DNA of 64,000 bases from Acidimicrobiia bacterium. Lineage in GTDB: Bacteria > Acidobacteriota > Terriglobia > Bryobacterales > Bryobacteraceae. The DNA lies in contig VFZE01000026.1 of NCBI GenBank assembly GCA_016871315.1, forward strand, positions 1 to 64,000. The letters are read 5' to 3'. Below the pieces are notes generated by a model, which was given only the letters and a program-made list of their open reading frames with translations, was not told where the DNA came from and did no database searches. Positions 9,064-19,740 of the stretch are shown piece after piece (the stretch's first letter is position 1; each line of letters begins with the position of its first letter). The translations under genes were made by a program, and so were the position numbers.

Positions 9064-10860
9064 TCAGCGCGCACCTTCGCTGATCACCTTCTCCAGGTGC
9101 TGCCGCAGCGGCTGGAAATAGGCCAGCATCGCCCGCGTCGAGATGTCCTCGCCCGTTTTCTCCCGGATCACCTGCCGCCAGTCCCGCGTCGCACCCATCG
9201 CCAGGATCTCCTGCAGCCACCGCCCCACTTGCTTGTTCCCGTAATAGTTGCAGCTGCGCGGGTCCTGCTGTAAGATCCGCCGCGCGATGTAGTCGTGCAG
9301 CTGGTACTTGATTACGTAGGCCAGCGCGTAGTCGTAATACTGCGCCGGATCGTCGATGATGTGCGTCTTGGTGCAGGCGTCGCAGTACTGTTCGCCGCGT
9401 TCGCCCGGCGGCTCCATCCCCTGGTACTGCCGCACCATCTCCCACCACCTCTTGTTGAACTGGTCCGGCGGCAAGCCCTTCTCATAAAGCTCGTATTCGA
9501 AGTGCGTCATCGTGCCGGCCGACCATGGCAGAAACACCACCGCGCTGTCCAGCGCCTCGGCCAGCAGAAGGTCCATCGCGTCGATCTTCACCGAAGCCGG
9601 TAGAATCCCTGTCTGGCGCAGATACGGCTCCTGCCGCGCCGCGATCCCGATCAGGTCGCCCAGCGCTTCGTGGAAGGCGCGGTTCAGCCCCTCCCGCAGC
9701 ACGTGCGGCACCTTCTCATTCGAATAGGCGATGTAGTAGTAAACGTGCCCCAGCTCGTGATGGCTGGTTTCAAACCAGCTGAAGTTCGGGATCACGCTCA
9801 TCAGGCTGCGCACGTCGGCGGCGCGGTCAATGTGCCACGCCGAGGCGTGTGTGTTCTTCTTCCGCGTTGCATTCGCCGGCAGTTGATAAAGGTCGGACCT
9901 CTCCCAAAAACTTCGCGGCAGCGGCGGCATCCCGAGTGAGGTGTAAAACCGCTCCGCCTGCTGCACGATCCAGCGCGGCGTCTTGCCCCGGAAATAAGGA
10001 TCGAAATCGGCCGACTCCACCAGCCCCGGCCACTCCTGCCCCCAGCGGTTCCCGATCCAGTGCGCCGGCAGCCGCTCCGGCGCCGGCTGCTTGAACCTCG
10101 CCGCCAGCCGCCGCCGCGCGTACAGATGCAGCTGATCATAAAGCGGCTTCAAGTCTCCCAGCGACTTGTCCATCAGCTGCACCATCTCCGCAACGGTCAT
10201 CCCGTAATCGGCCACCTGTAAATGGAAATAGGAGCTGTAGCCCAGCTCCTTGGCAACACGGTTGCGCAGGTCGCGCAACTCAGCCAGCCCTTGCTTCAGC
10301 GCAGGCCCGGTCTGCTTGCTTACCTCCCAGTACTTGCGCCGCGCGGCCATATCGGTGGAGGTCCGCAGAACCTCGTCGATATCGTTCGGAGTCACCGGCT
10401 TCACGCACTTCCCGCCCCTCTCTTCCAGGCAGAACGTGAATCCGTCGAGCGTCGCCGCCAGCCGCGCCTCCGCCTGGATCCGCGATTGCACGATTTCGGG
10501 AATCGTCCCCGGCGACTCCGCCGCGTTCAGCAGAATCTTATCCAGCTGCCGGAACTCCAGATCCGTCAGCGCTTCCCGGTCCGCCAGCAGCCGCCTCGCA
10601 TTCTCGATCACATACTTGCTTCCGCGGAACGCCGCGTGCGCCGCCTCCGCCCCGATCCGCTCCCCCGTGTTCTGCGCATTCACATCGGTCGCCGCCCGCC
10701 AGTTGGCCAGCGCCGAGGTCGTGTACAGCCGCTGATCGATCTGGTTGTACATCGCCAGAAACGATTGCACTCCCGCCTCGCGTGAAGGCGAAGAGAGCTG
10801 CGTGCAGGAGATAAGGCCCGCCAGCAGCCCGCAGGCGCCCAGTACTCGTGTGAGCTTCAC
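9064..10860 (-). CDS. M2-family peptidyl-dipeptidase (ACE-like) lipoprotein
   Basis: The 598-residue product starts with a lipoprotein signal ending in LISC (Cys19). The M2 zinc site HHELGH is near residue 365, and HEALGD downstream supplies the third ligand. These motifs and the length match bacterial homologues of angiotensin-converting enzyme, which remove C-terminal dipeptides. It is probably anchored in the envelope and used for peptide scavenging. The GTG start at 10860 has no ribosome binding site. A TACAAT hexamer ends six bases before it, so the mRNA may be leaderless. The gene converges with the matrixin gene. Confidence 0.93.
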   Translation of the reverse strand: MKLTRVLGACGLLAGLISCTQLSSPSREAGVQSFLAMYNQIDQRLYTTSALANWRAATDVNAQNTGERIGAEAAHAAFRGSKYVIENARRLLADREALTDLEFRQLDKILLNAAESPGTIPEIVQSRIQAEARLAATLDGFTFCLEERGGKCVKPVTPNDIDEVLRTSTDMAARRKYWEVSKQTGPALKQGLAELRDLRNRVAKELGYSSYFHLQVADYGMTVAEMVQLMDKSLGDLKPLYDQLHLYARRRLAARFKQPAPERLPAHWIGNRWGQEWPGLVESADFDPYFRGKTPRWIVQQAERFYTSLGMPPLPRSFWERSDLYQLPANATRKKNTHASAWHIDRAADVRSLMSVIPNFSWFETSHHELGHVYYYIAYSNEKVPHVLREGLNRAFHEALGDLIGIAARQEPYLRQTGILPASVKIDAMDLLLAEALDSAVVFLPWSAGTMTHFEYELYEKGLPPDQFNKRWWEMVRQYQGMEPPGERGEQYCDACTKTHIIDDPAQYYDYALAYVIKYQLHDYIARRILQQDPRSCNYYGNKQVGRWLQEILAMGATRDWRQVIREKTGEDISTRAMLAYFQPLRQHLEKVISEGAR

Positions 10861-10935: not shown

Positions 10936-11011
10936 GCCACCCTAGCTCAGTTGGTAGAGCGGCTGATTCGTAATCAGCAGGTCGCCGGTTCGATCCCGGC
11001 GGGTGGCTCCA
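10936..11011 (+). tRNA. tRNA-Thr (anticodon CGT), CCA encoded
   Basis: All arms fold. The acceptor GCCACCC pairs with GGGTGGC; the D stem is GCTC/GAGC; the anticodon stem GCTGA/TCAGC closes the loop TTCGTAA with anticodon CGT, which reads ACG; the T stem GCCGG/CCGGC closes TTCGATC; the discriminator T and CCA end at 11011. The gene marks the left edge of a degraded island: copies of its 3' half recur at 11916 and, less exactly, at 12767. Such 3'-end copies are the usual trace of integrase-mediated insertion at a tRNA. Confidence 0.97.
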
Positions 11012-11170
11012 GAATAAAATCAACGTTTAGAGGCCCGCCAACGGCGCGGCTGGTCACTGGGGCGGCGCTGGCGGATGGATCCGAGAATCTGATCGATCGT
11101 CAAATCCTTCTGCCACTGCTCGCGGTCGCGCGTATAGTCGCCCGCGCCGGCGCGATTCAAGCGCAAGAAC
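10967..11170 (+). repeat. direct repeat copy 1, from the tRNA anticodon loop into flanking DNA
   Basis: These 204 bases recur at 11916-12119 with only two differences that I can see: C versus T in the GGATGGATYCGAG stretch, and C versus G at 11162/12111. The repeat starts inside the tRNA anticodon loop, covers the whole tRNA 3' half and continues 159 bases beyond it into the 3' part of an 87-codon gene. The near identity suggests a recent duplication or unequal exchange. Confidence 0.93.
11020..11165 (-). pseudogene. 3' fragment of the 87-codon island gene
   Basis: This frame encodes RLNRAGAGDYTRDREQWQ and KDLTIDQILGSIRQRR, the same C-terminal half as the complete 87-residue gene at 11969-12232. 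The upstream half is missing: the frame continues into unrelated sequence after the repeat ends at 11170. It is a by-product of the 204-base duplication. Confidence 0.8.
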
Positions 11171-11284
11171 ACGAATAAAAACGGCTTCGCTGTCGCCAGA
11201 CCCGCCCAACCAAAACCCAAAGAAATCCAATTCACCCTGAATTCCGCCATCCTCGCCGCGACAGGATAGCCAAACACGAGAGGC
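11171..11284. other. intergenic island sequence without a recognised gene
   Basis: This stretch lies between the end of repeat copy 1 and the hairpin downstream of hicA. I see no codon-usage or motif evidence for a protein, only chance frames. It is somewhat richer in A and T than its neighbours. Confidence 0.4.
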
Positions 11285-11305
11285 CCGCTGACTAAATGTC
11301 AGCGG
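11285..11305 (-). terminator. hairpin downstream of hicA
   Basis: CCGCTGAC (11285-11292) and GTCAGCGG (11298-11305) form a perfect eight-pair stem around TAAAT. It lies about 55 bases past the hicA stop on the minus strand. No T run follows, so it could instead be a processing or repeat hairpin. Confidence 0.4.
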
Positions 11306-11359
11306 CCCCATCTGAACGAGCGCTGACGCGGCCGCGATCGATCGAACGGGGACTAACGC

Positions 11360-11577
11360 GCTACAGTGCTTGGAGGAAGTCCTCCAGGCTAATGCCCGCC
11401 TGGCGGAGAATGCTCTGGAGCGTGGCGGCAATGAGGTTTCGATGCATCGGAATGGTGACGCGCCGGGACCCTCGAACCATCCGGGACATGAGAGCCGCTC
11501 TGTCTGGCGACCGAGAAGCCGAGCCGCGCTAGCGCCCTCACGGCTTCAGATCCTGAGATGTCCCGGGGCAGCTTCAC
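11360..11577 (-). pseudogene. hicA: hicA mRNA-interferase toxin, frameshifted
   Basis: The GTG at 11575-11577 starts a frame that encodes KLPRDISGSEAVRALARLGF and VARQSGSH, the usual HicA beginning with the catalytic histidine region. After GSHV the frame drifts into unrelated sequence. Reading one base fewer in the CCC run restores the expected end: RMVRGSRRVTIPMHRN, then IAATLQSILRQAGI and LEDFLQAL, with TAG at 11360-11362. A single-base insertion therefore inactivates the toxin, unless it is a sequencing error. The start overlaps the hicB stop by the usual few bases (GTGA). Confidence 0.85.
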
Positions 11578-11798
11578 GCTTGAATCAGGATGGGATCGCT
11601 CACGAAGTGGATTCTGATCCGGGATGGAGCGGATTCCACTTCAAAGTGAACTGCCACTGCCTCCGTGATCTGCTCCTGCAAGTCGCGGAGGTCTCGCCCT
11701 TGAGTCGTAATGCCCCCAGTCCCATCGGGATCGTCCCAAGAAGCGACCAGCCATCCCGATTCCTCGTCTCGCTGCACCTGTAGGGTGATTTCGTGCAT
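11574..11798 (-). CDS. hicB: HicB-type antitoxin
   Basis: The 74-residue product starts MHEITLQVQRDEESGWLVAS and ends with EVESAPSRIRIHFV and DPILIQA. This fits the HicB partial RNase-H-like fold: a beta-alpha-beta core and the SRIRLHFV-type final strand. It lacks a separate DNA-binding domain. Such antitoxins bind and block HicA. It sits directly upstream of hicA with GTGA overlap, in antitoxin-toxin order. Because its hicA is frameshifted it may be an orphan now. An upstream in-frame ATG at 11972 reads the tRNA antisense and was not chosen. Confidence 0.85.
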   Translation of the reverse strand: MHEITLQVQRDEESGWLVASWDDPDGTGGITTQGRDLRDLQEQITEAVAVHFEVESAPSRIRIHFVSDPILIQA

Positions 11799-11915
11799 GG
11801 CCTCGACCTCAATTATTCCACACTCAAGCGGTTGGCCTGCCAGAAGTGCACCGCCCCCTGTGTTGGAGGGAGGACCGTATAGAGTTGTTGGACTGGCTGG
11901 AAGAAGTCCGTATTC

Positions 11916-12119
11916 TTCGTAATCAGCAGGTCGCCGGTTCGATCCCGGCGGGTGGCTCCAGAATAAAATCAACGTTTAGAGGCCCGCCAACGGCGCGGCT
12001 GGTCACTGGGGCGGCGCTGGCGGATGGATTCGAGAATCTGATCGATCGTCAAATCCTTCTGCCACTGCTCGCGGTCGCGCGTATAGTCGCCCGCGCCGGC
12101 GCGATTCAAGGGCAAGAAC
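11916..12119 (+). repeat. direct repeat copy 2, starting with a tRNA-Thr 3' half
   Basis: This is the second copy of the 204-base repeat. Bases 11916-11960 reproduce the tRNA-Thr from the anticodon loop through CCA. No tRNA 5' half precedes it (TCCGTATTC instead), so this is a tRNA fragment and not a gene. The rest lies inside the 3' end of the 87-codon gene. Confidence 0.93.
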
Positions 12120-12232
12120 CGGGCGAGGCCATCGGGACCCAACTCGCGTTGCAGGAGCTCAAGGGCGTGCCGTTCGAATTGCTCGTCCGTTAACTGGTCG
12201 ATGGCGATCGTTGTCCTTGTTCCTTGATCCAA
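11969..12232 (-). CDS. 87-residue island protein of unknown function, third gene of a toxin-antitoxin-like cluster
   Basis: The product includes TTIAIDQLTDEQFERHALEL, LQRELGPDGLARFL and GDYTRDREQWQKDLTIDQI. It looks like a small, mostly helical, charged protein with no signal peptide or membrane segment. I do not recognise a named family. The TTG start at 12232 lies inside the end of the PIN-toxin remnant (43-base overlap), in the order antitoxin, PIN, this gene. That suggests an accessory part of the same locus. Its 3' half is duplicated at 11020-11165. Confidence 0.65.
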   Translation of the reverse strand: MDQGTRTTIAIDQLTDEQFERHALELLQRELGPDGLARFLPLNRAGAGDYTRDREQWQKDLTIDQILESIRQRRPSDQPRRWRASKR

Positions 12233-12440
12233 GATAGCGGATTCCGCACGGGAATTCGAGGGTTGCCCAACTTGCGGGCGGTGCGCTTCAGCAGCCGTTC
12301 GCCGGTCGTTAACAGCACCTCCGCTTGAGCCGATTCAGGCGCCGCGAGATGGAGTGCATCGTAAGGACCGTAGCCCAGCCCGACCAAGCCTTGAGCGCTG
12401 TGAGCCGGCCGAGGCAACAGGCGTCCAGGTAGACTCTCAT
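12190..12440 (-). pseudogene. vapC: VapC-like PIN-domain toxin with internal deletion
   Basis: The frame starts at an ATG (12438-12440) overlapping the antitoxin stop as ATGA, and reads MRVYLDACCLGRLT, which contains the first PIN catalytic aspartate. The next part in another frame reads GLGYGPYDALHLAAPESA, then AEVLLTTGERLLKRTARKLG and PRIPVRNPLSW, the normal C-terminal third of this PIN family. The middle, perhaps 60-70 codons by comparison with usual PIN proteins, is missing, and the join changes frame. The toxin must be inactive. Confidence 0.82.
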
Positions 12441-12655
12441 GCCCGCTTCCGCGAAGCTCGTTTTTCCCGTCGTGCGTCGATGTCGGCGAGGGTTGGCTTC
12501 CGGGAACGCGGGAACTCTACGGCCGGACGCGCGCCAGCTGATACGGACACGCCGGGCGTCACCCAATGGCGATTGATCGTCACTGGCGCTTTCGAGTCCA
12601 GGATGCTAGCCCAGTTCGCCCGGAACTCACGGATTCCAACTTTGGTTCGCGGCAT
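12437..12655 (-). CDS. Phd/YefM-like antitoxin
   Basis: The 72-residue product starts MPRTKVGIREFRANWASIL and continues APVTINRHWVTPGVSVSA, matching the VREFRANL...PVxVTRHGxxVGxxxP pattern of Phd/YefM antitoxins, which bind their own promoter and neutralise a partner toxin. The usual G of RHG is W here and the tail (DIDARREKRASRKRA) is very basic. The stop overlaps the PIN start by ATGA, the classic coupled arrangement. With the toxin destroyed it is probably decaying. Confidence 0.78.
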   Translation of the reverse strand: MPRTKVGIREFRANWASILDSKAPVTINRHWVTPGVSVSAGARPAVEFPRSRKPTLADIDARREKRASRKRA

Positions 12656-12672
12656 TTGGCTGTCTGAGCCTT

Positions 12673-12692
12673 GCTATGTACACAATCATAGC
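12673..12692 (-). promoter_or_regulatory. inverted repeat, likely operator of the phd-vapC locus
   Basis: GCTATG (12673-12678) and CATAGC (12687-12692) are perfect six-base arms separated by eight bases. They end 18 bases before the antitoxin ATG. Phd-type antitoxins repress by binding such palindromes over their promoters, so autoregulation is the simplest reading. Confidence 0.45.
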
Positions 12693-12766
12693 GCCCGTAA
12701 CCTTCGCCGAGTCGAGAGAAAATGGACGGGAATCACGCGGGAGACTTGACAGCCCTGGCTTCCTAT

Positions 12767-12805
12767 ATCAGCAAGTCGCCGGTTCGATCCCGGCGGGAGG
12801 CTCCA
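12767..12805 (+). repeat. third, diverged tRNA 3'-end fragment (att-like scar)
   Basis: These 39 bases match the tRNA-Thr 3' half from the anticodon stem through CCA with two differences: AAGTC for AGGTC, and GGGAGGC for GGGTGGC in the acceptor strand. No 5' half precedes it. The altered acceptor strand means that it derives from a different or mutated tRNA. It marks the right edge of the island. Confidence 0.85.
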
Positions 12806-12808
12806 GCC

Positions 12809-13000
12809 TCAGCCAGCCTGGGCCATCCCTGGCGCTACCCTCGTGTCCTCGGTCTGGCTCGAGGTTGCCACCGACAGCGCCACCAGAGCGGCCCGGCCAA
12901 ACTCCTCCAGATCCTGCTGTGCGTGCTCCTCCGAGCAATACCTCCAACCCTGCATCCGTTTCAGCAATGGCAATCGCTCTTGGCAGTAGAGACAGTTCAT
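12809..13000 (-). CDS. small Cys-containing protein, probably truncated at the island edge
   Basis: The 63-residue product starts MNCLYCQERLPLLKRM and continues GWRYCSEEHAQQDLEEFGRA. The C-x-x-C...C-x-x-x-H pattern looks like a small zinc-binding head seen at the start of longer acidobacterial proteins. After RAALVALS the sequence turns low in pattern and stops four bases from the tRNA scar, so the rest of the gene was probably lost at the island junction. The ATG at 13000 has a strong AGAAGGTGA six bases upstream. Confidence 0.55.
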   Translation of the reverse strand: MNCLYCQERLPLLKRMQGWRYCSEEHAQQDLEEFGRAALVALSVATSSQTEDTRVAPGMAQAG

Positions 13001-13174
13001 AACGTCACCTTCTGTCGAAAATCTCCAGCGCCATCTTTTCTCCGGATGCGCGCTGTCTAATGAGATTCTCTTAGGGCAACTGGGTTGCCATCGCCGGAAC
13101 CCGCCGAAGCTGTTGCATTCCTTACACTCACCACCCCCTCCGGCCCGGCGCACGCGGCGCCTCGGAAATTATGG

Positions 13175-13191
13175 CCGGACAAGATGTCCGG
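13175..13191 (-). terminator. hairpin downstream of the five-gene operon
   Basis: CCGGACA (13175-13181) and TGTCCGG (13185-13191) form a perfect seven-pair stem around AGA, about 40 bases past the last stop codon of the minus-strand operon. A weak T-rich stretch (TAATTT) follows on that strand. Confidence 0.45.
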
Positions 13192-13230
13192 GTTTGCCCC
13201 CCTGCCGCACCAGGCACAGCAGCCTGCCGG

Positions 13231-13668
13231 CTACTTGTCCTTATTCTCCGGCTTGTCGTAGGGCGCGCCCGTGCCCGAGGAGCCCATGAAGAACTTCCGC
13301 CCGTCGGTCAGCGTCACGTCGCGCCCGTTGGCCCGCCGAGACCGGTCCTTGGCCTGATACCCGTCGACGATGATCACCTGTCCGGGCTTGATCGTATCGC
13401 GCTTCAGCCCGCGGCGGAGCAGGCTGTTCGGCGTCCCGCCTTCCACCATCCATACTTGCTTGCCGCCGTCCTCCTTGGTCACTTCCAGGTGGATCCAGGT
13501 GTGCGGATTGATCCACTCCACGCGCACCACCGGTCCCTTCAGCAGCACCGGACGGTTCGGGTCGAACTCGGCGCCGAAGGCGTGATGCGCTTCCACCTTC
13601 CGCGTCAGCGTCAGGCACACAACCAGCGCCGCCGCCAGGGCCAGAATCGATTTCGATAGCTTGCTCAT
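13231..13668 (-). CDS. small exported protein of the DUF6152 type
   Basis: A 145-residue protein with a signal peptide (KSILALAAALVVCLTL) cleaved before AHHAFGAEFD. The mature HHAF-AEFD start and the central WINPHTWIHLEV block are the marks of the family that I know as DUF6152, periplasmic proteins of unknown function. The two histidines at the mature N-terminus could bind metal, but that is inference. It is the last gene of a five-gene operon and has a good GGAAGG ribosome binding site before the ATG at 13668. Confidence 0.82.
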   Translation of the reverse strand: MSKLSKSILALAAALVVCLTLTRKVEAHHAFGAEFDPNRPVLLKGPVVRVEWINPHTWIHLEVTKEDGGKQVWMVEGGTPNSLLRRGLKRDTIKPGQVIIVDGYQAKDRSRRANGRDVTLTDGRKFFMGSSGTGAPYDKPENKDK

Positions 13669-13681
13669 GTTCCTTCCCATC

Positions 13682-14710
13682 TTACTTGGCCTTCGCGGCC
13701 GCTTCGGCTTCCAGCAGCCGAGCCCCGCGCAGGATGCCTTCAAACGAGTAGTTGCCCTCATGGCAGGCGTACTCGTAAATACGATCCTCGGTTGCCGGCA
13801 TGATCATCTCGCCGCTCCAGGGCCGCGTCCACACCGTTGGATCCTCGACGGTGAACTGGTAGAGCAGCGTCCTCGCATCGATCCGCGTGAACCGCTCGAC
13901 CACGTGCAGGTACCGCGTCGCCGAGGTCAACGCCGGCTGATCGGTGAAATTCGTCGTGTCGACAACCAGCGTATCGCCCTCCCAACGCCCCACCGAATCG
14001 CCCAGCCAGCGCCGTATCTCCGGCGGCTCATGCTCTTCGTTCATGCGGATGATGCGCACATCGTGCACCATCTCGTTCAGGATCATGATCCGGTTCGGCG
14101 TCTGCACGATCTGCTTGAGGTTGTTATAAAGCACCGGCAGCATCGGCGGGCCGCCGGTCGAACCAAACCCCAGCAGGCACCGCTCGCCCAGCGGCCGCAG
14201 CTCGGGATCATCGTACGGGCCCGGATTCAGCCCCTCCTTGACCCACCATGCATCGCCTGTGTTCGGACGCGCCAGCGCCACCCGCGCCGCCGCACGCTTG
14301 CGGGCCTCCGGCGTCAGCGGCGGCATCCGCCCGTTCTTCGGATCCGTGATGATCGACGTCCGCCACTTGCCGTTGATCTTGAATGCTCCCGTGCCGCGGT
14401 CCGTCCACACGGTGTTGTAGCCGCCCACGTTGCCCGCCGCACCTTCGGAACCATCGCCGCCCTTGGGTGGCGCGGTGCGGTTCGGATTGCTCGCCTGGCT
14501 GGTCTTGGCCATCCGCGCTGCCTCCATCTTCGCCAGCGCGGCCGCTTCCTGATCGCTCAGCTCCAGCCGGTCGCCCAAGTGATCCGGCCGCAACAGCGGC
14601 GTCAGCGTCGCGATGTCGTAGACGCCCGACAAGTCCGGCTTCCCTTCCGCCGTCCGCGGAATCTGGCCCGGCAGCAGCGCCGCGGCCACCAGCAGCAGTC
14701 CTATGCGCAT
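13682..14710 (-). CDS. exported protein of unknown function, acidobacterial LSGVYD/ACHEGNY family
   Basis: The 342-residue product has a short signal peptide (MRIGLLLVAAALLPGQ). The mature part starts TAEGKPDLSGVYDIATLTPL and later shows RWEGDTLVVDTTNF, RPWSGEMIM and YEYACHEGNYS. The gene upstream encodes a related protein with the same GRWEGDTLVV core, so the two are paralogues. I know this kind of sequence from Acidobacteriota but not its function. A low-complexity Ala/Lys end (EAEAAAKAK) closes it. It lies 13 bases from the DUF6152 gene. Confidence 0.85.
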   Translation of the reverse strand: MRIGLLLVAAALLPGQIPRTAEGKPDLSGVYDIATLTPLLRPDHLGDRLELSDQEAAALAKMEAARMAKTSQASNPNRTAPPKGGDGSEGAAGNVGGYNTVWTDRGTGAFKINGKWRTSIITDPKNGRMPPLTPEARKRAAARVALARPNTGDAWWVKEGLNPGPYDDPELRPLGERCLLGFGSTGGPPMLPVLYNNLKQIVQTPNRIMILNEMVHDVRIIRMNEEHEPPEIRRWLGDSVGRWEGDTLVVDTTNFTDQPALTSATRYLHVVERFTRIDARTLLYQFTVEDPTVWTRPWSGEMIMPATEDRIYEYACHEGNYSFEGILRGARLLEAEAAAKAK

Positions 14711-14720
14711 GACACCCTCC

Positions 14721-15578
14721 TCACCTCTCCAACTTCTTGCGGCGATGCTCGCCAAAGACCAGCTCTTCCACGAACTCCACGCACTTGAAATCCACCAGCC
14801 GCGCGTCCTTCTCCATCCGCCGGTAGAGCGGCAGCGAAATCTTCCAGGGCCGCGCGAACACCTCCGGATCCTCGATCGTCGCCTCATATTGAATATGGTT
14901 GGGCGTCATGAGCCTGTATCGCTCCACCACCTTCATCTGTTCGGTGTGGTGCGTGCCGGAGCGGTCCAGCCACGTCTGATCGTTCTGCCCCGTAACCTCC
15001 ACCACCAAGGTATCGCCCTGCCACTTCCCCACCGACTGGCCCATCCAGCTATCGGTCTCCGGCGGTCCCGGATCGGTGAAGTAAATGTCGCGCGCCGCCC
15101 CCGCATACTCGTACGCGATAAAGAACTGTTTCTCGTTCTGAATAATCTGGAACGGAAATGGCAGGTAGGTGGCACGCGGCACGCCGGGCAGATAACACTT
15201 GATCTCCGGGTCGCGCTCGATCCAATGCTTGCGGTTCTCCTCGCGCTTGGCGCGGGCCTCCGGCTTGTAGGGAATGCTTCCACCCTCCACGATTCCCATC
15301 CCGCCCGGCACCGACGCCACCGCGCCCAGCCGCAGCAGCGGCACCGCCGGAAGCGGACCGTGCGGACCGTCCCGCAGCATCATCGCCGGCCTCGCCATGT
15401 GCCGCTCGATGTCGTAGTGAGCCGAGCCGATGGCCTGCCAGACGCCGTTGAAGTCCGGCTTCCCATTGGACAGCCGGGGCAATTGCTGCGCGCCCGCCGC
15501 CACTGTCAAGATCGAGATTACAAGGATTCGCGGTAACACCGAACTGAAGCTACCACACCAGCACCGGCGCGGCAACAC
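14721..15578 (-). CDS. exported protein of unknown function, paralogue of the downstream gene
   Basis: The 285-residue product contains a signal peptide (VLPRILVISILTVAAGAQ) and a mature start NGKPDFNGVWQAIGSAHYD. It shares GKWQGDTLVVEVTGQNDQTW and the RPWKISLPLYRR region with the next gene. It may act with its paralogue on the same unknown substrate outside the cytoplasm. The first ATG-equivalent is at 15578; GTG at 15539 would give a more usual signal peptide length. It is separated by 10 bases from the downstream gene and 4 from the upstream one, so co-transcription is very likely. Confidence 0.85.
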   Translation of the reverse strand: MLPRRCWCGSFSSVLPRILVISILTVAAGAQQLPRLSNGKPDFNGVWQAIGSAHYDIERHMARPAMMLRDGPHGPLPAVPLLRLGAVASVPGGMGIVEGGSIPYKPEARAKREENRKHWIERDPEIKCYLPGVPRATYLPFPFQIIQNEKQFFIAYEYAGAARDIYFTDPGPPETDSWMGQSVGKWQGDTLVVEVTGQNDQTWLDRSGTHHTEQMKVVERYRLMTPNHIQYEATIEDPEVFARPWKISLPLYRRMEKDARLVDFKCVEFVEELVFGEHRRKKLER

Positions 15579-15582
15579 CTAG

Positions 15583-16053
15583 CTAGTAAAAGGCGATCCA
15601 GCGCCCGGAAAACCCCACGGCGAACCACAGCCCCAGGCTCACCACCGCCGTCAGCTTCTGGAGCACCGGGCTGGCAGGCTCCGCCGCCGCCACGCGCCGC
15701 CGTATCGAAACCGCGAAAAGCGACGCCGCCACCAGAAACCCCATCTTGTACCAGAACGGCGGGCTGTAATAACACTTCACCGCCTCCGACAGCATCAACG
15801 GCACGCCCGTCAGAATCATCGCCGCCAGCGAGCCCGCCATCCACAAGTGCACTTTCGCCGCCAACTCCGCCACCGGCTGCGCACGCAACCCGAGCCCCAG
15901 CATCCGCAGATCCACCACCAGCACCGTGCCGCCGAGCAACGCCAACGCCAGCAGGTGAACGCACTCGATCACCGGGAACAGCCATAGCGACTCGCGCACG
16001 GCCGTGCCGACCGCCGTCGCTTCAAACCACTGGAATAAAGGAAACAGGCTCAT
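15583..16053 (-). CDS. four-helix membrane protein of the DUF6644 type
   Basis: This is a 156-residue inner-membrane protein with about four hydrophobic helices. It has ESLWLFPVIECVHLLALALL near the N-terminus and SLGLWFAVGFSGRWIAFY at the end. The E...H pattern in the first helix (FPVIECVHLLAL) is repeated in the paralogue just upstream (YPLVETTHVLTL). A conserved histidine inside a helix could ligate haem, but this is a guess. Its ATG overlaps the upstream stop as ATGA, so the two are translated together and may form a heterodimer. Confidence 0.82.
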   Translation of the reverse strand: MSLFPLFQWFEATAVGTAVRESLWLFPVIECVHLLALALLGGTVLVVDLRMLGLGLRAQPVAELAAKVHLWMAGSLAAMILTGVPLMLSEAVKCYYSPPFWYKMGFLVAASLFAVSIRRRVAAAEPASPVLQKLTAVVSLGLWFAVGFSGRWIAFY

Positions 16054-16562
16054 GGTTCAAACCAGTTGTAGGCCTGCATCCGCCCGCAGACCACAACCCC
16101 GCTCCAAAGCACAAGGCTCAGTGCGCCGGCCAGCTTCGCCCTCACCGGCGGCGAAGCATCCAGATCCCACGCCGCCACGCGCTTGTAGATCGTCAGATGG
16201 AACAACAGCGCGTTCAGCCCGGCCAGCACAAGCATCGCCATCTTCACGCGAAAGAAGATGTTCTGATACGCGCGCAGCGGACCCGAATAAAACAGCAGCA
16301 GCCCGCTCACCACCATCAGCGCGAATCCGGCGAAGGCCACCGGCAGCAGCCGCCCCGCCACCTCCGACACCGGCACCCTCCGCAGCGCCGCGCCCAGCAG
16401 CCGCAAATCCAGCAGCGCGATCATCCCCAGAAACAGGCATAGCGTCAGCACATGCGTCGTCTCCACGAGCGGATAGAAGAGGATCGACTCGCGGATCGCG
16501 ACGCTGCCCGCCGTGTTTTCCAGCCACTCAAAAAAGGGAAGCAACCCGGAGTAGTCTAGCAT
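16050..16562 (-). CDS. four-helix membrane protein, paralogue of its neighbour (DUF6644 type)
   Basis: The 170-residue product starts MLDYSGLLPFFEWLENT and has about four transmembrane helices, with YPLVETTHVLTLCLFLGM in the first. It is the first gene of the five-gene operon. The start at 16562 was chosen because the longer frame reads through the divergent promoter region and the homologous neighbour also starts just before an FxWFE/FEWLE stretch. Function is unknown. Co-occurrence with the DUF6152 protein suggests one membrane-plus-periplasm complex. Confidence 0.82.
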   Translation of the reverse strand: MLDYSGLLPFFEWLENTAGSVAIRESILFYPLVETTHVLTLCLFLGMIALLDLRLLGAALRRVPVSEVAGRLLPVAFAGFALMVVSGLLLFYSGPLRAYQNIFFRVKMAMLVLAGLNALLFHLTIYKRVAAWDLDASPPVRAKLAGALSLVLWSGVVVCGRMQAYNWFEP

Positions 16563-16578
16563 TGCCGCAGGCCGCATT

Positions 16579-16584
16579 GGTACA
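16579..16584 (+). promoter_or_regulatory. -10 hexamer of the haem-lipoprotein gene
   Basis: TACAAT ends 15 bases before the ATG at 16600 and overlaps the alternative ATG at 16583-16585. That argues for the downstream start. Confidence 0.4.
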
Positions 16585-16599
16585 ATGCTTCCGCCTCTC

Positions 16600-17064
16600 A
16601 TGCGTAACCCATGCGCCGCCCTCCTGCTGCTCTCGCTTACCGGGTGCGCCCCCAAGCCCGAGCCGCCCATCCAAGCCGTCGCCACCTTGGGCGAAGTGAT
16701 GCACGACATCGTCATCCCCAACGCCGAAGTGGTCTGGGACGCCGTGGGGACAATCTATACGCTGGAAGGCGTCGAGGAGATCCAACCCAAAACCACCGAG
16801 GAATGGATGGCCGTCGAGCGCAGCGCCACCACGCTGATGGAAGCCGGCAACCTGCTCATGATGGAACCCCGCGCCAAGGACAACAAGAACTGGATGCAAC
16901 GCGCCGCCGCCCTGCGTGCCGCTGGCGATGCTGTCCGCAAGGCCGCCCGGGAGCGTAACCCGGAAGCCGTCTTCAACCGAGGCGGTCAGCTCTTCGAGGC
17001 CTGCCAGGGCTGTCATTTTGAATACCGCTTCGAAGAAGACCGGACGACCATCCGCACGCACTAG
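16600..17064 (+). CDS. c-type cytochrome-like lipoprotein with one CxxCH motif
   Basis: The product, about 154 residues, has a lipoprotein signal (ALLLLSLTGC). A helical body holds one haem-attachment motif, CQGCH, near the C-terminus (FEACQGCHFEYRF). The late position of the motif and the helical content resemble four-helix-bundle cytochrome c prime-like proteins. It would sit on the periplasmic face as an electron carrier or gas sensor. It is transcribed away from the five-gene operon from a 37-base gap, so the two may share control. The ATG at 16585 is also possible but less likely. Confidence 0.78.
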   Translation: MRNPCAALLLLSLTGCAPKPEPPIQAVATLGEVMHDIVIPNAEVVWDAVGTIYTLEGVEEIQPKTTEEWMAVERSATTLMEAGNLLMMEPRAKDNKNWMQRAAALRAAGDAVRKAARERNPEAVFNRGGQLFEACQGCHFEYRFEEDRTTIRTH

Positions 17065-17082
17065 ACAAGCGGGATTGACCAT

Positions 17083-18408
17083 CTAACCCAACAACACCAA
17101 CCGCACATCCATCACGTTCGTCCGAGTCGGTCCTGTCTTCACCAAATCCCCCAGGGGCTCAAAGAAATGGTAGGAGTCGTTCCGTGCCAGGAAATCGTCC
17201 GATTTATTGCCCGCCTCCGCCGCCCGCGCGACAGTCCGCCCGTCGGCGATAGCGCCCGCCGCATCCGTCGGACCATCGGTACCGTCCGTGCCGCCGCTCA
17301 GCACCACGACGCTGTCCATGCCCGCCACGTCCATCGCCGCCGCCAGCACGAACTCCTGATTGCGCCCGCCCAGTCCCTTGCCGCGGATCGTGACCGTGGT
17401 CTCCCCGCCGCTGATGATGCAAGCGGGCGCCTTGAGGGGGCGTCCCGAGGAGCGAACCTCCTTGGCGATGGCGGCGTGCATGCGGGCTACATCCTTAGTT
17501 TCGCCCTCGATGAACGTGGATAGAACAAGAATCTTGTACCCAAGCCGGCGCGCCTTCACCGCCGCCGCGTCCACCGCCAGACGGTTGCTGCCCACCACCA
17601 GATTCTGCGTTCGCCGGAAAGCCGCGTCGCCCGGCTTCGGCGTTTCGCCTTCGCCCTTTTCCAGCCGGCGGAGCACGCTCGCCGGGACCTTTCCGCGCAG
17701 GCCGTACTTATCCAGAATCGCTCCCACATCCGCAAACGTCGTGCGGTCGGGCACCGTCGGGCCGGAACCGATCGCGTCCAGCGAATCGCCGATCACGTCG
17801 CTCAGCATCAGCGTAATCAACGTCGCCGGCGCGGCCAGCCGCGCCAGCTGCCCGCCCTTGAATCCGGAGATGTGCTTGCGCACCGCGTTGATCTCCTGAA
17901 TCGGCGCGCCGCATTCCAATAGCAGCCGCGTCGTCGCCTGCTTCTCCTGAAGCGTGATCGGCGCCACCGGCGCAGGCGTCAGTGCGGAAGCTCCGCCCGA
18001 AATCAGGCAGATCACCAGATCCTTCGCCGTAGCTGATCCGGCAATCGCCGCGATGCGCCGCGTACCCTCGACGCCCGCTTCATCGGGAACCGGGTGGCCG
18101 CATTCGCGCACCCCGATACGCTTCAACGGCGCGCCATGCCCGTACTTCACATTGATCAGGCCGCCCGTGATGCGCTTTCCAAGAACCTTCTCCACCGCCA
18201 GCCCCATGGCGGCGGAAGCCTTCCCCGCCCCGATCACGTGGATCTTCTCAAAGCTCTTCAGCGAGTAGCGCCTTGGGCCGACGAACAGCGTTTCCCCCTG
18301 CCGGCGCACCGAGCGTAGCACCGCCTCCACAGGATCCGCCGCCTTCAACGCCGCTTGAAATATGGCTGCCGCATGCAGCCGCAGTTTTTTCTCTTTCATC
18401 ACTACCAT
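17083..18408 (-). CDS. glycerate 2-kinase (MOFRL/GckA type)
   Basis: The 441-residue product matches class II glycerate kinases. It has VIGAGKASAAM in the N-terminal domain, GHPVPDEAG, and LISGGASAL, followed by a C-terminal half with ISGGETTVTIRGKGLGGRNQ and SGGTDGTDGPTDAAGA. These enzymes phosphorylate D-glycerate with ATP, joining glyoxylate or serine breakdown to glycolysis. The ATG overlaps the aroK stop as TAATG, so translation is coupled to shikimate kinase even though the pathways differ. Confidence 0.93.
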   Translation of the reverse strand: MVVMKEKKLRLHAAAIFQAALKAADPVEAVLRSVRRQGETLFVGPRRYSLKSFEKIHVIGAGKASAAMGLAVEKVLGKRITGGLINVKYGHGAPLKRIGVRECGHPVPDEAGVEGTRRIAAIAGSATAKDLVICLISGGASALTPAPVAPITLQEKQATTRLLLECGAPIQEINAVRKHISGFKGGQLARLAAPATLITLMLSDVIGDSLDAIGSGPTVPDRTTFADVGAILDKYGLRGKVPASVLRRLEKGEGETPKPGDAAFRRTQNLVVGSNRLAVDAAAVKARRLGYKILVLSTFIEGETKDVARMHAAIAKEVRSSGRPLKAPACIISGGETTVTIRGKGLGGRNQEFVLAAAMDVAGMDSVVVLSGGTDGTDGPTDAAGAIADGRTVARAAEAGNKSDDFLARNDSYHFFEPLGDLVKTGPTRTNVMDVRLVLLG

Positions 18409-18935
18409 TAGAACAAAGGCAGTTGAAGGATCTCCCGCACCGCCGCCATCGGATCGTCACTGTCGATCGCGATCCGGTAGTCGGCCTGCGCGTAACTGGC
18501 GATCCGCTCGTGATAGAGTTGCTCGAACCGTTGCGGGTCCCGGGCCAGCGGCCGGTGCTGTTGTCCCGCGGTCCGGTTGCGCACCCGCTCCAGCGGGCAG
18601 TCCAGCCAGATGGAAACGCCGTTGTCGGCCACCATCTCCACATTCGCCTGCGCCGTATAGGCGCCCCCGCCGAGCGAAATCACCATCGGAACCCCGCATT
18701 GCACCTTGCGCACGCGCTTTTGAAGCGCTTCATGTTCCCGCTTCCGGAACTCCGGCTCGCCGAGCTGCTGGAAGATCTCGGTGATGGTAACCTTGGCCTC
18801 CGCTTCAATCTCGTCGTCCAGATCGACAAAGCTCCAGCCCAGGTCATCGGCCAGCAGCCGCCCGACCGTCGATTTGCCGGAGCCCATGAAGCCCACCAGG
18901 TACAGCGCCGGAGTGCGTACAAGCTTGGAATGCAT
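18408..18935 (-). CDS. aroK: shikimate kinase
   Basis: The 175-residue product has the P-loop GFMGSGKST (residues 15-23), the substrate-binding DLDDEIE motif, the EPEFRKRE region with the shikimate-contacting arginine, LGGGAY, and the lid arginine in RPLARDP. It phosphorylates shikimate at the 3-hydroxyl in the aromatic amino acid pathway. The length is normal and all key residues are present. The last codons overlap the glycerate kinase start. No other aro gene is in the window. Confidence 0.95.
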   Translation of the reverse strand: MHSKLVRTPALYLVGFMGSGKSTVGRLLADDLGWSFVDLDDEIEAEAKVTITEIFQQLGEPEFRKREHEALQKRVRKVQCGVPMVISLGGGAYTAQANVEMVADNGVSIWLDCPLERVRNRTAGQQHRPLARDPQRFEQLYHERIASYAQADYRIAIDSDDPMAAVREILQLPLF

Positions 18936-18960
18936 CGGAACTCTACAGCTTATTACAGGC

Positions 18961-19740
18961 TCACATGTCGAGGCCGTGGTAGATGCGCTCCATCGCGCGG
19001 TCGATCAGGCCGGGAAACAGAGTCCGGCCGGCCAGCAACAGCCAGCCCATCCGCGGCGTCACCACCGTCCGCTTCCCCCGCTCCACGCCCCGCACAACCG
19101 CATGCGCGCATTGCTCCGGAGTGATCGCGAACCGCCGCATCCGCCATAACTTGTCAGGCGGACGCCCGGCCAGCACGTTCTGCTGAAACCCGGTGCTCAC
19201 ATAGCCGGGACAGACCGTCGTGAACCGGATCCCGTCGCGGCGCAGCTCCATGCGCATGCCGTCTGTCATCGACCGCAGCGCGAACTTCGACGCCGAGTAC
19301 AACGTAAACCACGGCAGCGTCACCAGGCCGGCGATCGAACTGACATTGACGATGACGCCCGCGCGCTGCTGCTTCATCGCAGGCACCACCAATTGCGTCA
19401 TGCCCAGCGCGGCGAACAGGTTCAACTCCAGCATGCCGCGCACATCCTGCTCCGGCGCACGCCAGGCAGGCACATACAGTCCGACCCCGGCGTTGTTAAT
19501 CAGCACGTCGATCCTGCCCCATCGCTCCAGCGTCGATTCCACCGCCCGCCTCCGCACCTCCGGATCCTTCAAATCCCCTGCGGTGATGACAGCCTCCGCC
19601 CCTCCAACCCGCTCCAGCTTGTGCAGGCTCCGCGCGGTCAGCGACAGCCGCGCCCCGCGGCCCCGGAAGGCGTCCGCGCAGCAGGCGCCGATCCCTTCCG
19701 ATGCTCCGGTGATCAGCACAACTTTGTCGCGCAGCTGCAT
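18961..19740 (-). CDS. SDR-family oxidoreductase
   Basis: This is a 259-residue classical short-chain dehydrogenase with TGASEGIG at the start, NNAG in DVLINNAGVGLY, the catalytic serine in NVSSIAG and the Y-x-x-x-K in YSASK. The C-terminal extension (RMGWLLLAGRTLFPGLIDRA) is hydrophobic or amphipathic, as in SDRs acting on lipid or retinol-like substrates at membranes. The cofactor is probably NADP. The gene diverges from the Lon N-domain gene with only 18 bases between starts. The start at 19740 is chosen because the cofactor motif follows directly. Confidence 0.92.
   Translation of the reverse strand: MQLRDKVVLITGASEGIGACCADAFRGRGARLSLTARSLHKLERVGGAEAVITAGDLKDPEVRRRAVESTLERWGRIDVLINNAGVGLYVPAWRAPEQDVRGMLELNLFAALGMTQLVVPAMKQQRAGVIVNVSSIAGLVTLPWFTLYSASKFALRSMTDGMRMELRRDGIRFTTVCPGYVSTGFQQNVLAGRPPDKLWRMRRFAITPEQCAHAVVRGVERGKRTVVTPRMGWLLLAGRTLFPGLIDRAMERIYHGLDM

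Follow-up and report, generated by a model that had tools for sequence, protein, structure and literature searches.

The window analysed here, a 64,000-nucleotide stretch of contig VFZE01000026.1 (assembly GCA_016871315.1, Acidobacteriota in the GTDB lineage), carries at 13231-16562 five minus-strand genes that form a tight cluster, of six genes if the divergent lipoprotein gene is counted. They are arranged as follows (DUF, domain of unknown function; FABP, fatty-acid-binding protein):

16600-17064, plus strand: P0006, divergent lipoprotein resembling cytochromes c'/c556, one CxxCH; Pfam Cytochrom_C_2 below cut-off
16563-16599: intergenic region of 37 bases between the divergent lipoprotein gene and the operon
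16050-16562, minus strand: P0005, four-helix membrane protein by visual inspection, paralogue B of DUF6644 (PF20349); Pfam 30.6 bits, cut-off 27
15583-16053, minus strand: P0004, four-helix membrane protein, paralogue A of DUF6644; Pfam 83.9 bits, cut-off 27
14721-15578, minus strand: P0003, exported, predicted lipocalin/FABP-like barrel
13682-14710, minus strand: P0002, exported; a paralogue of P0003, the phmmer comparison of the two giving about 1e-21
13231-13668, minus strand: P0001, exported DUF6152 protein (PF19649), predicted OB-fold; Pfam 102.2 bits, cut-off 27

From P0005 through P0004, P0003 and P0002 to P0001 the gaps are, in order, -4, 4, 10 and 13 bases, the start of P0004 overlapping the stop of P0005 (ATGA); the start codons of these five open reading frames (ORFs) were chosen by eye. 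An initial annotation, made from the letters alone, had described this tight five-gene cluster with its divergent CxxCH lipoprotein gene, and we recovered all its ORFs, the gaps and the 37-base spacing, as well as the paralogy it saw within each pair, the membrane proteins (hhalign E 9.8e-42 between the P0005 and P0004 families) and the exported ones. It had also taken the 37 bases for a shared promoter region. The spacing holds, or shrinks to 22 bases if the alternative P0006 start at 16585 is used; the promoter is not supported, no sigma-70-like site being found in 13000-17200, where shuffled sequence averages 0.7 sites. Its statement that no part has a known function applies to P0002 and P0003, which Pfam leaves unmatched up to E 1, and has to be qualified for the others: P0001 belongs to DUF6152, P0004 and P0005 to DUF6644, and P0006 is like a cytochrome c' below the Pfam cut-off. 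NCBIfam gave no match for the cluster proteins, PHROGs nothing beyond one chance match of P0006 (E 0.031), and Rfam no match over 11000-19000 at the gathering cut-off. Sequence searches of solved structures were fruitless for P0002 (E up to 1), A5, A3 and P0006 (E up to 5), and no paper naming DUF6152 or DUF6644 was found in the open-licence PubMed Central literature.

We are highly confident that this cluster and its relatives represent one system that behaves as a unit. The initial annotation had suggested one envelope complex; that the genes form one envelope system is supported by the conserved neighbourhood and the matching phyletic distributions, and the parts may also associate physically in one complex. 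The neighbourhood was scanned in one genome per species, starting from five aligned P0003-type proteins and keeping the best 80 of at least 566 confirmed relatives; these 80 are labelled Acidobacteriota, Gammaproteobacteria, Gemmatimonadota and, once, Acidimicrobiia in the database. Profiles built from the window proteins detect, within 5 kb of P0003, a DUF6152 gene in 73/80 loci, a P0002-type gene in 69/80, DUF6644 type B in 36/80, type A in 30/80 and the cytochrome in 34/80, and all six gene types together in 19/80. In 58 of the 80 the P0002-type gene is next to P0003 and DUF6152 lies downstream, both on the strand of P0003. Seven loci are devoid of DUF6152, four of which end less than 2 kb downstream of P0003. 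A DUF6644 pair is present within 5 kb in 33/80 loci and any DUF6644 in 37/80, which leaves 43/80 with none. Since the loci were picked by similarity to P0003, these counts are uninformative on DUF6152 or DUF6644 in general.

Seen from DUF6152, the association with the barrel genes is again close: a P0002/P0003-type gene lies within 4 kb of 49 of 65 DUF6152 genes, and within 300 bases of 44 of them, DUF6644 and the cytochrome being near four each (60 regions of 7 genomes, out of 96 DUF6152 matches in 12 genomes). A whole-genome search for DUF6644, which covered 27 of the 43 loci without a nearby copy, found it elsewhere in 26 of the 27 genomes, compared to none of 14 controls; all 26 contain at least two DUF6644 matches that are about 1 kb apart or less. 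Among these separate loci, read in 20 of the 26 genomes, a P0006-type cytochrome is near the pair in 7/20, a further DUF6152/barrel set is nearby in 3/20, and four of the seven with a cytochrome also harbour HupE/UreJ_2 or its partner. As the loci are often apart, the system appears to be made of two halves: a membrane half, which comprises the DUF6644 pair, often with the cytochrome and sometimes with HupE, and an exported half of barrels and DUF6152. An independent scattering of the genes in relatives, which would have contradicted the initial annotation, is not seen: the set is conserved across genomes, even if its halves are often separated.

The phyletic distributions agree with this picture. 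Among 149 genomes of the phylum of the window, DUF6644 and DUF6152 exceed the cut-off in an identical set of 12, and the P0002/P0003 family in the same 12 plus a thirteenth genome, G080 (75% complete); two further genomes have sub-threshold DUF6644 matches. The 12 genomes span six family codes, and finding the identical six families among at least 50 would have a probability of at most about 1e-7 in a random draw, a rough estimate that ignores the kinship between families. Copy numbers in these genomes vary from 1 to 31 matches for DUF6152 and from 2 to 6 for DUF6644. In the genome of the window (98.3% complete) the single DUF6152, the two DUF6644 and the two barrel matches are all within this cluster. 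The P0002 family is patchy in the window's own family code (9/37 genomes) and was not found in the only further genome with its genus code. A quick tree of the 80 P0003 proteins contains 8 changes of phylum label, of which starred branches force at least 5 for Acidobacteriota; metagenome assemblies make up most of the rows and some labels could be erroneous, yet transfer of P0003 across phyla is the simple reading of this tree.

P0001 displays a signal peptide (by eye) followed by His-His and, further on, NPHTWIH. The window's own protein and those of the P0003 loci all show His-His with a Pro-His 15-45 residues later (74/74), as do 63/65 other DUF6152 proteins, compared to 54/2375 background ORFs. 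The residue preceding His-His is Ala in 70/74; the placing of His-His at the mature N-terminus rests on a cleavage judged by eye. H29, H30 and H57 are invariant in 86 aligned sequences and H61 is kept in 91%, this last position being present in just 29 of the 65 proteins from outside the P0003 loci. (The counts over 86 sequences here, and those below over 74, 42, 90, 102 and 48, include the window and additional loci; judging from length and gene coordinates, L033 and L037 are apparently the same contigs as L160 and L110, so a few rows are double.) The model of the mature protein is an OB-fold (pLDDT 84.2, pTM 0.76) which aligns with PriB (VIA Z 9.8, 81 residues, root mean square deviation, rmsd, 2.3). 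The best 50 structure matches are all OB-fold-type by title; CusF, CcmE and CopC are not among them, a listing that by itself excludes none of the three. DUF6152 is the sole Pfam match of P0001, and CopC gives none up to E 1. The conserved histidines are candidate ligands of a metal, most likely copper.

In the membrane pair, His37, Asp52, Arg54, Lys107, Trp153 and Arg161 of P0005 are invariant in 37 aligned relatives (95-99% of 74), and His33, Asp48, Arg50, Lys103, Trp143 and Arg151 of P0004 are invariant in 30 (98-100% of 42). Each DUF6644 protein has one nearly invariant histidine (98% and 97%). The candidate metal- or haem-binding histidines pointed out in the initial annotation are, as far as conservation goes, borne out by this residue, by His-His and Pro-His of DUF6152 and by the CxxCH of P0006. 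The Pfam models of CopD and HemJ do not match P0004 or P0005 up to E 1; remote matches of 37 P0005-type members nevertheless fall on DUF2214 (20/37), HemJ, i.e. UPF0093 (11/37), and CopD (8/37), the best being E 4.6e-4 for CopD (PF05425) and E 0.0019 for HemJ, matches that stay below the HemJ Pfam cut-off of 34.2 in the latter case. Comparison of profiles by hhalign gave E 3.4e-5 (probability 72%) for CopD and 0.0035 (9%) for HemJ, pairwise values without calibration against a database, from sets that exclude L256-L258, three proteins matching HemJ more weakly, and eight sub-cut-off CopD matches. The controls DoxX (E 0.47) and HupE (E 0.73) have no such similarity, and a DoxX-like or HupE-like identity of DUF6644 was rejected. 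In these alignments the helix-3 Lys of DUF6644 coincides with a Lys of 14/15 CopD and 18/19 HemJ proteins, and its helix-1 His with the His of 18/19 HemJ proteins. DUF6644 thus seems remotely CopD/HemJ-like.

The barrel proteins share two cysteines: Cys128 and Cys266 of P0003 are invariant in 100 aligned P0002/P0003-type proteins (99% of 90) and could form a disulphide; their counterparts in P0002, Cys179 and Cys317, are conserved at 96-97% (102 aligned). The P0003 model (pLDDT 85.8, pTM 0.85) matches retinol- and fatty-acid-binding barrels, with a best Foldseek E of 2.5e-3 and, against cellular retinol-binding protein (CRBP) and FABP, a VIA Z of 8.1 at best over 120 residues (rmsd 3.2), a moderate match. 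P0003 differs from these calycin barrels in being exported, with a mature length of 256 residues and two conserved cysteines, and its sequence matches none of the solved chains up to E 5. The family is one that routine annotation passes over, because no Pfam model matched in the members scanned; it is nevertheless greatly expanded in two genomes, G173 and G182, with at least 34 P0002-type matches in each. Fusions of a P0002 domain with an exported double glyoxalase/VOC-type domain occur at three loci (L163 4438-6957, L164 7898-10546 and L165 4854-6662; Pfam for one). Long open frames at similar P0002 matches in genomes of the same genus code suggest further glyoxalase fusions.

P0006 has a lipobox cysteine and a single CxxCH near its C-terminus; Met34 and CxxCH are present in all 48 aligned sequences, window included. 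With 21.7 bits it stays under the Cytochrom_C_2 cut-off of 26.5, and two relatives behave likewise (25.6 bits in L046, no match in L084). It resembles the class II (c'/c556) monohaem cytochromes by its single CxxCH on the C-terminal side and by this weak match, and departs from them in falling below the Pfam cut-off. Met34 is presumably a ligand of the c556 type. In 12 of 81 loci, all labelled gammaproteobacterial, the cytochrome gene has a HupE/UreJ_2-like gene and a partner gene as neighbours (Pfam for one). The partner (L143 4539-5207 and relatives) is an unnamed protein that adjoins the HupE/UreJ_2-like gene in 12/12 loci having that gene; the one member scanned has no Pfam match. A side observation concerns L173, where a gene at 9148-10413 for a reaction-centre-type cytochrome c (CytoC_RC, 48.4 bits) separates a barrel set from a DUF6644 pair.

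The surroundings of these genes have a redox and catabolic flavour. Pfam scans covered 124 of 152 genes near DUF6152, 150 of 219 near the P0003 loci and all 98 near the separate DUF6644 pairs; for P0003, 14 near-copy loci were set aside and the far set, taken from the same loci, comprised 130 of 150 genes, the other 20 being dropped because their frames were wrong at contig ends. Domains of outer-membrane receptors, pyrroloquinoline quinone (PQQ)-type dehydrogenases, short-chain dehydrogenases/reductases and CoA enzymes recur, with no single pathway. PQQ-type dehydrogenase domains are the commonest neighbours (10/150 near genes vs 2/130 far genes, p 0.03), and HupE is also enriched (5/150 vs 0/130, p 0.04); the beta-lactamase excess near P0003 loci is insignificant (6/150 vs 2/130, p 0.19). 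In L040 (7356-17907), DUF6644, cytochrome and DUF6152 genes lie just upstream of genes for cytochrome c7, molybdopterin/iron-sulphur and NrfD proteins, which resemble an alternative complex III. On a plasmid of Novosphingobium humi, DUF6152, a barrel (28% identity, E 6e-21), a GH39-like gene and a DUF6644 pair adjoin genes for TetR, electron-transfer flavoprotein (ETF), ETF-quinone oxidoreductase (ETF-QO), acyl-CoA and enoyl-CoA enzymes, and on a Croceibacterium plasmid two DUF6152 genes, a barrel gene (by tblastn) and a gene for a TonB receptor follow one another. The small hypothetical proteins described by xoxF in PMC10875860 are different ones.

Altogether, these data suggest an envelope apparatus that probably handles metal and electrons. 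We tentatively propose, as a possible mechanism, a two-half metal/redox module for oxidative catabolism. Its membrane half would be a DUF6644 heterodimer of P0005 and P0004 together with the c556-like lipoprotein P0006. In the exported half, the N-terminal His-His and the later Pro-His of DUF6152 would bind a metal, most likely copper, and the lipocalin/FABP-like barrels P0003 and P0002 might hold a small organic ligand, on which this half would act in the periplasm or at the outer membrane. Metal and/or electrons would pass among DUF6152, the cytochrome and the membrane pair and on to the respiratory chain. One membrane pair could be shared by several exported sets, acting as interchangeable cartridges for different substrates. 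The gene set, its conservation, its co-occurrence and its copy numbers are observed, and the folds of DUF6152 and P0003 are predicted; the heterodimer, the copper, a haem or quinone at DUF6644, the binding of a ligand, the electron flow, the sharing and the catabolic role are what we infer around them.

Three other explanations deserve consideration. The nearest is copper acquisition or homeostasis of the CopC-CopD type, as with YcnI/YcnJ: DUF6152 would be the copper carrier with its N-terminal histidine, the DUF6644 pair the CopD-like importer in the membrane, the cytochrome a copper reductase, and the barrels metallophore or carrier proteins. CopD is the closest to DUF6644 of the four families compared, eight of the 37 members matching it weakly, and the HupE/UreJ_2-like genes beside the cytochrome in 12/81 loci would fit. 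Moreover the association of an exported N-terminal-histidine protein with a membrane histidine protein is the design of YcnJ: according to PMC13344008, Bacillus YcnJ has an external copper site with an N-terminal histidine and a histidine in its CopD domain, mutants of either being impaired under copper limitation, and histidine at an N-terminus chelates copper strongly (PMC10952591). On the other hand, a system for one metal fits poorly with up to 31 DUF6152 genes per genome or, as in two genomes, at least 34 P0002-type matches, and copper genes are absent from the 25 commonest neighbour Pfam families of each scan and from the neighbours on the Novosphingobium plasmid. The locus also differs from CopC-CopD by its two paralogous membrane subunits, its cytochrome and its two barrels. 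CopC is not known to have an OB-fold, the fold predicted for DUF6152. This explanation appears to us somewhat unlikely. The dozens of exported copies that some genomes combine with few membrane pairs, the ligand-type barrels, the cytochrome and the catabolic neighbours lead away from plain copper import, towards a substrate-specific oxidation with a shared supply of electrons or copper.

HemJ is a membrane protoporphyrinogen oxidase and a haem b protein, and OB-folds and barrels are able to carry haem. The pair might then bind haem b like HemJ and pass haem or electrons, DUF6152 and the barrels being haem chaperones. The weak UPF0093 matches (11/37) and the superposition of the helix-1 His and helix-3 Lys of DUF6644 on those of HemJ would agree with such a haem or tetrapyrrole system. 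However, the similarity to HemJ is weaker than that to CopD, DUF6644 occurs as a paralogue pair among exported proteins, and a true HemJ exists besides in 19 of the 24 genomes tested, for which reason a replacement of HemJ by DUF6644 was rejected there. We consider the haem system quite unlikely. Finally, the DUF6152-barrel set and the DUF6644-cytochrome set could be two or three independent functions placed side by side, as the separation of the halves in many genomes and the 43/80 loci without DUF6644 within 5 kb might indicate. Mere juxtaposition hardly accounts for the shared 12 of 149 genomes, nor for DUF6644 being found elsewhere in 26/27 genomes, so that we regard it as very improbable.

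Several observations weigh against the two-half module, or against parts of it. Kinship inflates the co-occurrence: five of the 12 genomes share one genus code, and the independent events are thus fewer than 12. G239 has P0003 and DUF6152 with no DUF6644 found genome-wide, and 13 of the 20 separate DUF6644 loci have no P0006-type cytochrome near; the neighbours there are mixed. The scarcity of membrane pairs is not universal, with 13 DUF6644 matches in G240 and 9 in G232. The enrichment of PQQ dehydrogenases is weak and concerns one of many families examined, and the barrel match is middling (Z at most 8.1, no Foldseek E below 1e-3). In the DUF6152 model His-His has a pLDDT below 50, and it lies with Pro-His at opposite ends of the long strand 1; for these two reasons they may not form a single brace site, of the kind in which the amine and imidazole of an N-terminal His and a second His hold copper.

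A more specific version of the two-half module would be an undescribed, cross-phylum, copper-dependent system of periplasmic oxidation, in which a shared CopD-like pair and a c-type cytochrome serve many OB-fold His-copper/lipocalin-like cartridges. We judge this version unlikely, its chances being lowered by the two genomes with many DUF6644 matches. More broadly, the silence of the open-licence literature on DUF6152 and DUF6644, and the failure of the CopC, CopD and HemJ Pfam tests, suggest a new kind of system made from remotely familiar parts. Several families without a function are thereby joined into one testable problem that extends over at least three phyla by database labels. DUF6152-type sets are also borne by plasmids of named sphingomonad strains, and the exact residues to probe can be stated: His-His, Pro-His, the one His of each membrane subunit, and Met34/CxxCH.

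Other features lie beside the cluster. A tRNA-Thr gene occupies 10936-11011 and its 3' end recurs at 11922-11961 (identical) and 12767-12806 (95%), accompanied by a 204-base repeat (99%); these copies (10936-12806) are probable scars of tandem integration. Mobility of the operon by this site was considered and rejected: the operon is beyond the last repeat and no fourth copy was detected in the window. Between the repeats, a HicA-like fragment at 11389-11577 reaches 26.1 bits, just below the cut-off of 27. At 9064-10860 lies a gene for a peptidase of family M2, angiotensin-converting-enzyme-like, with 330 bits.

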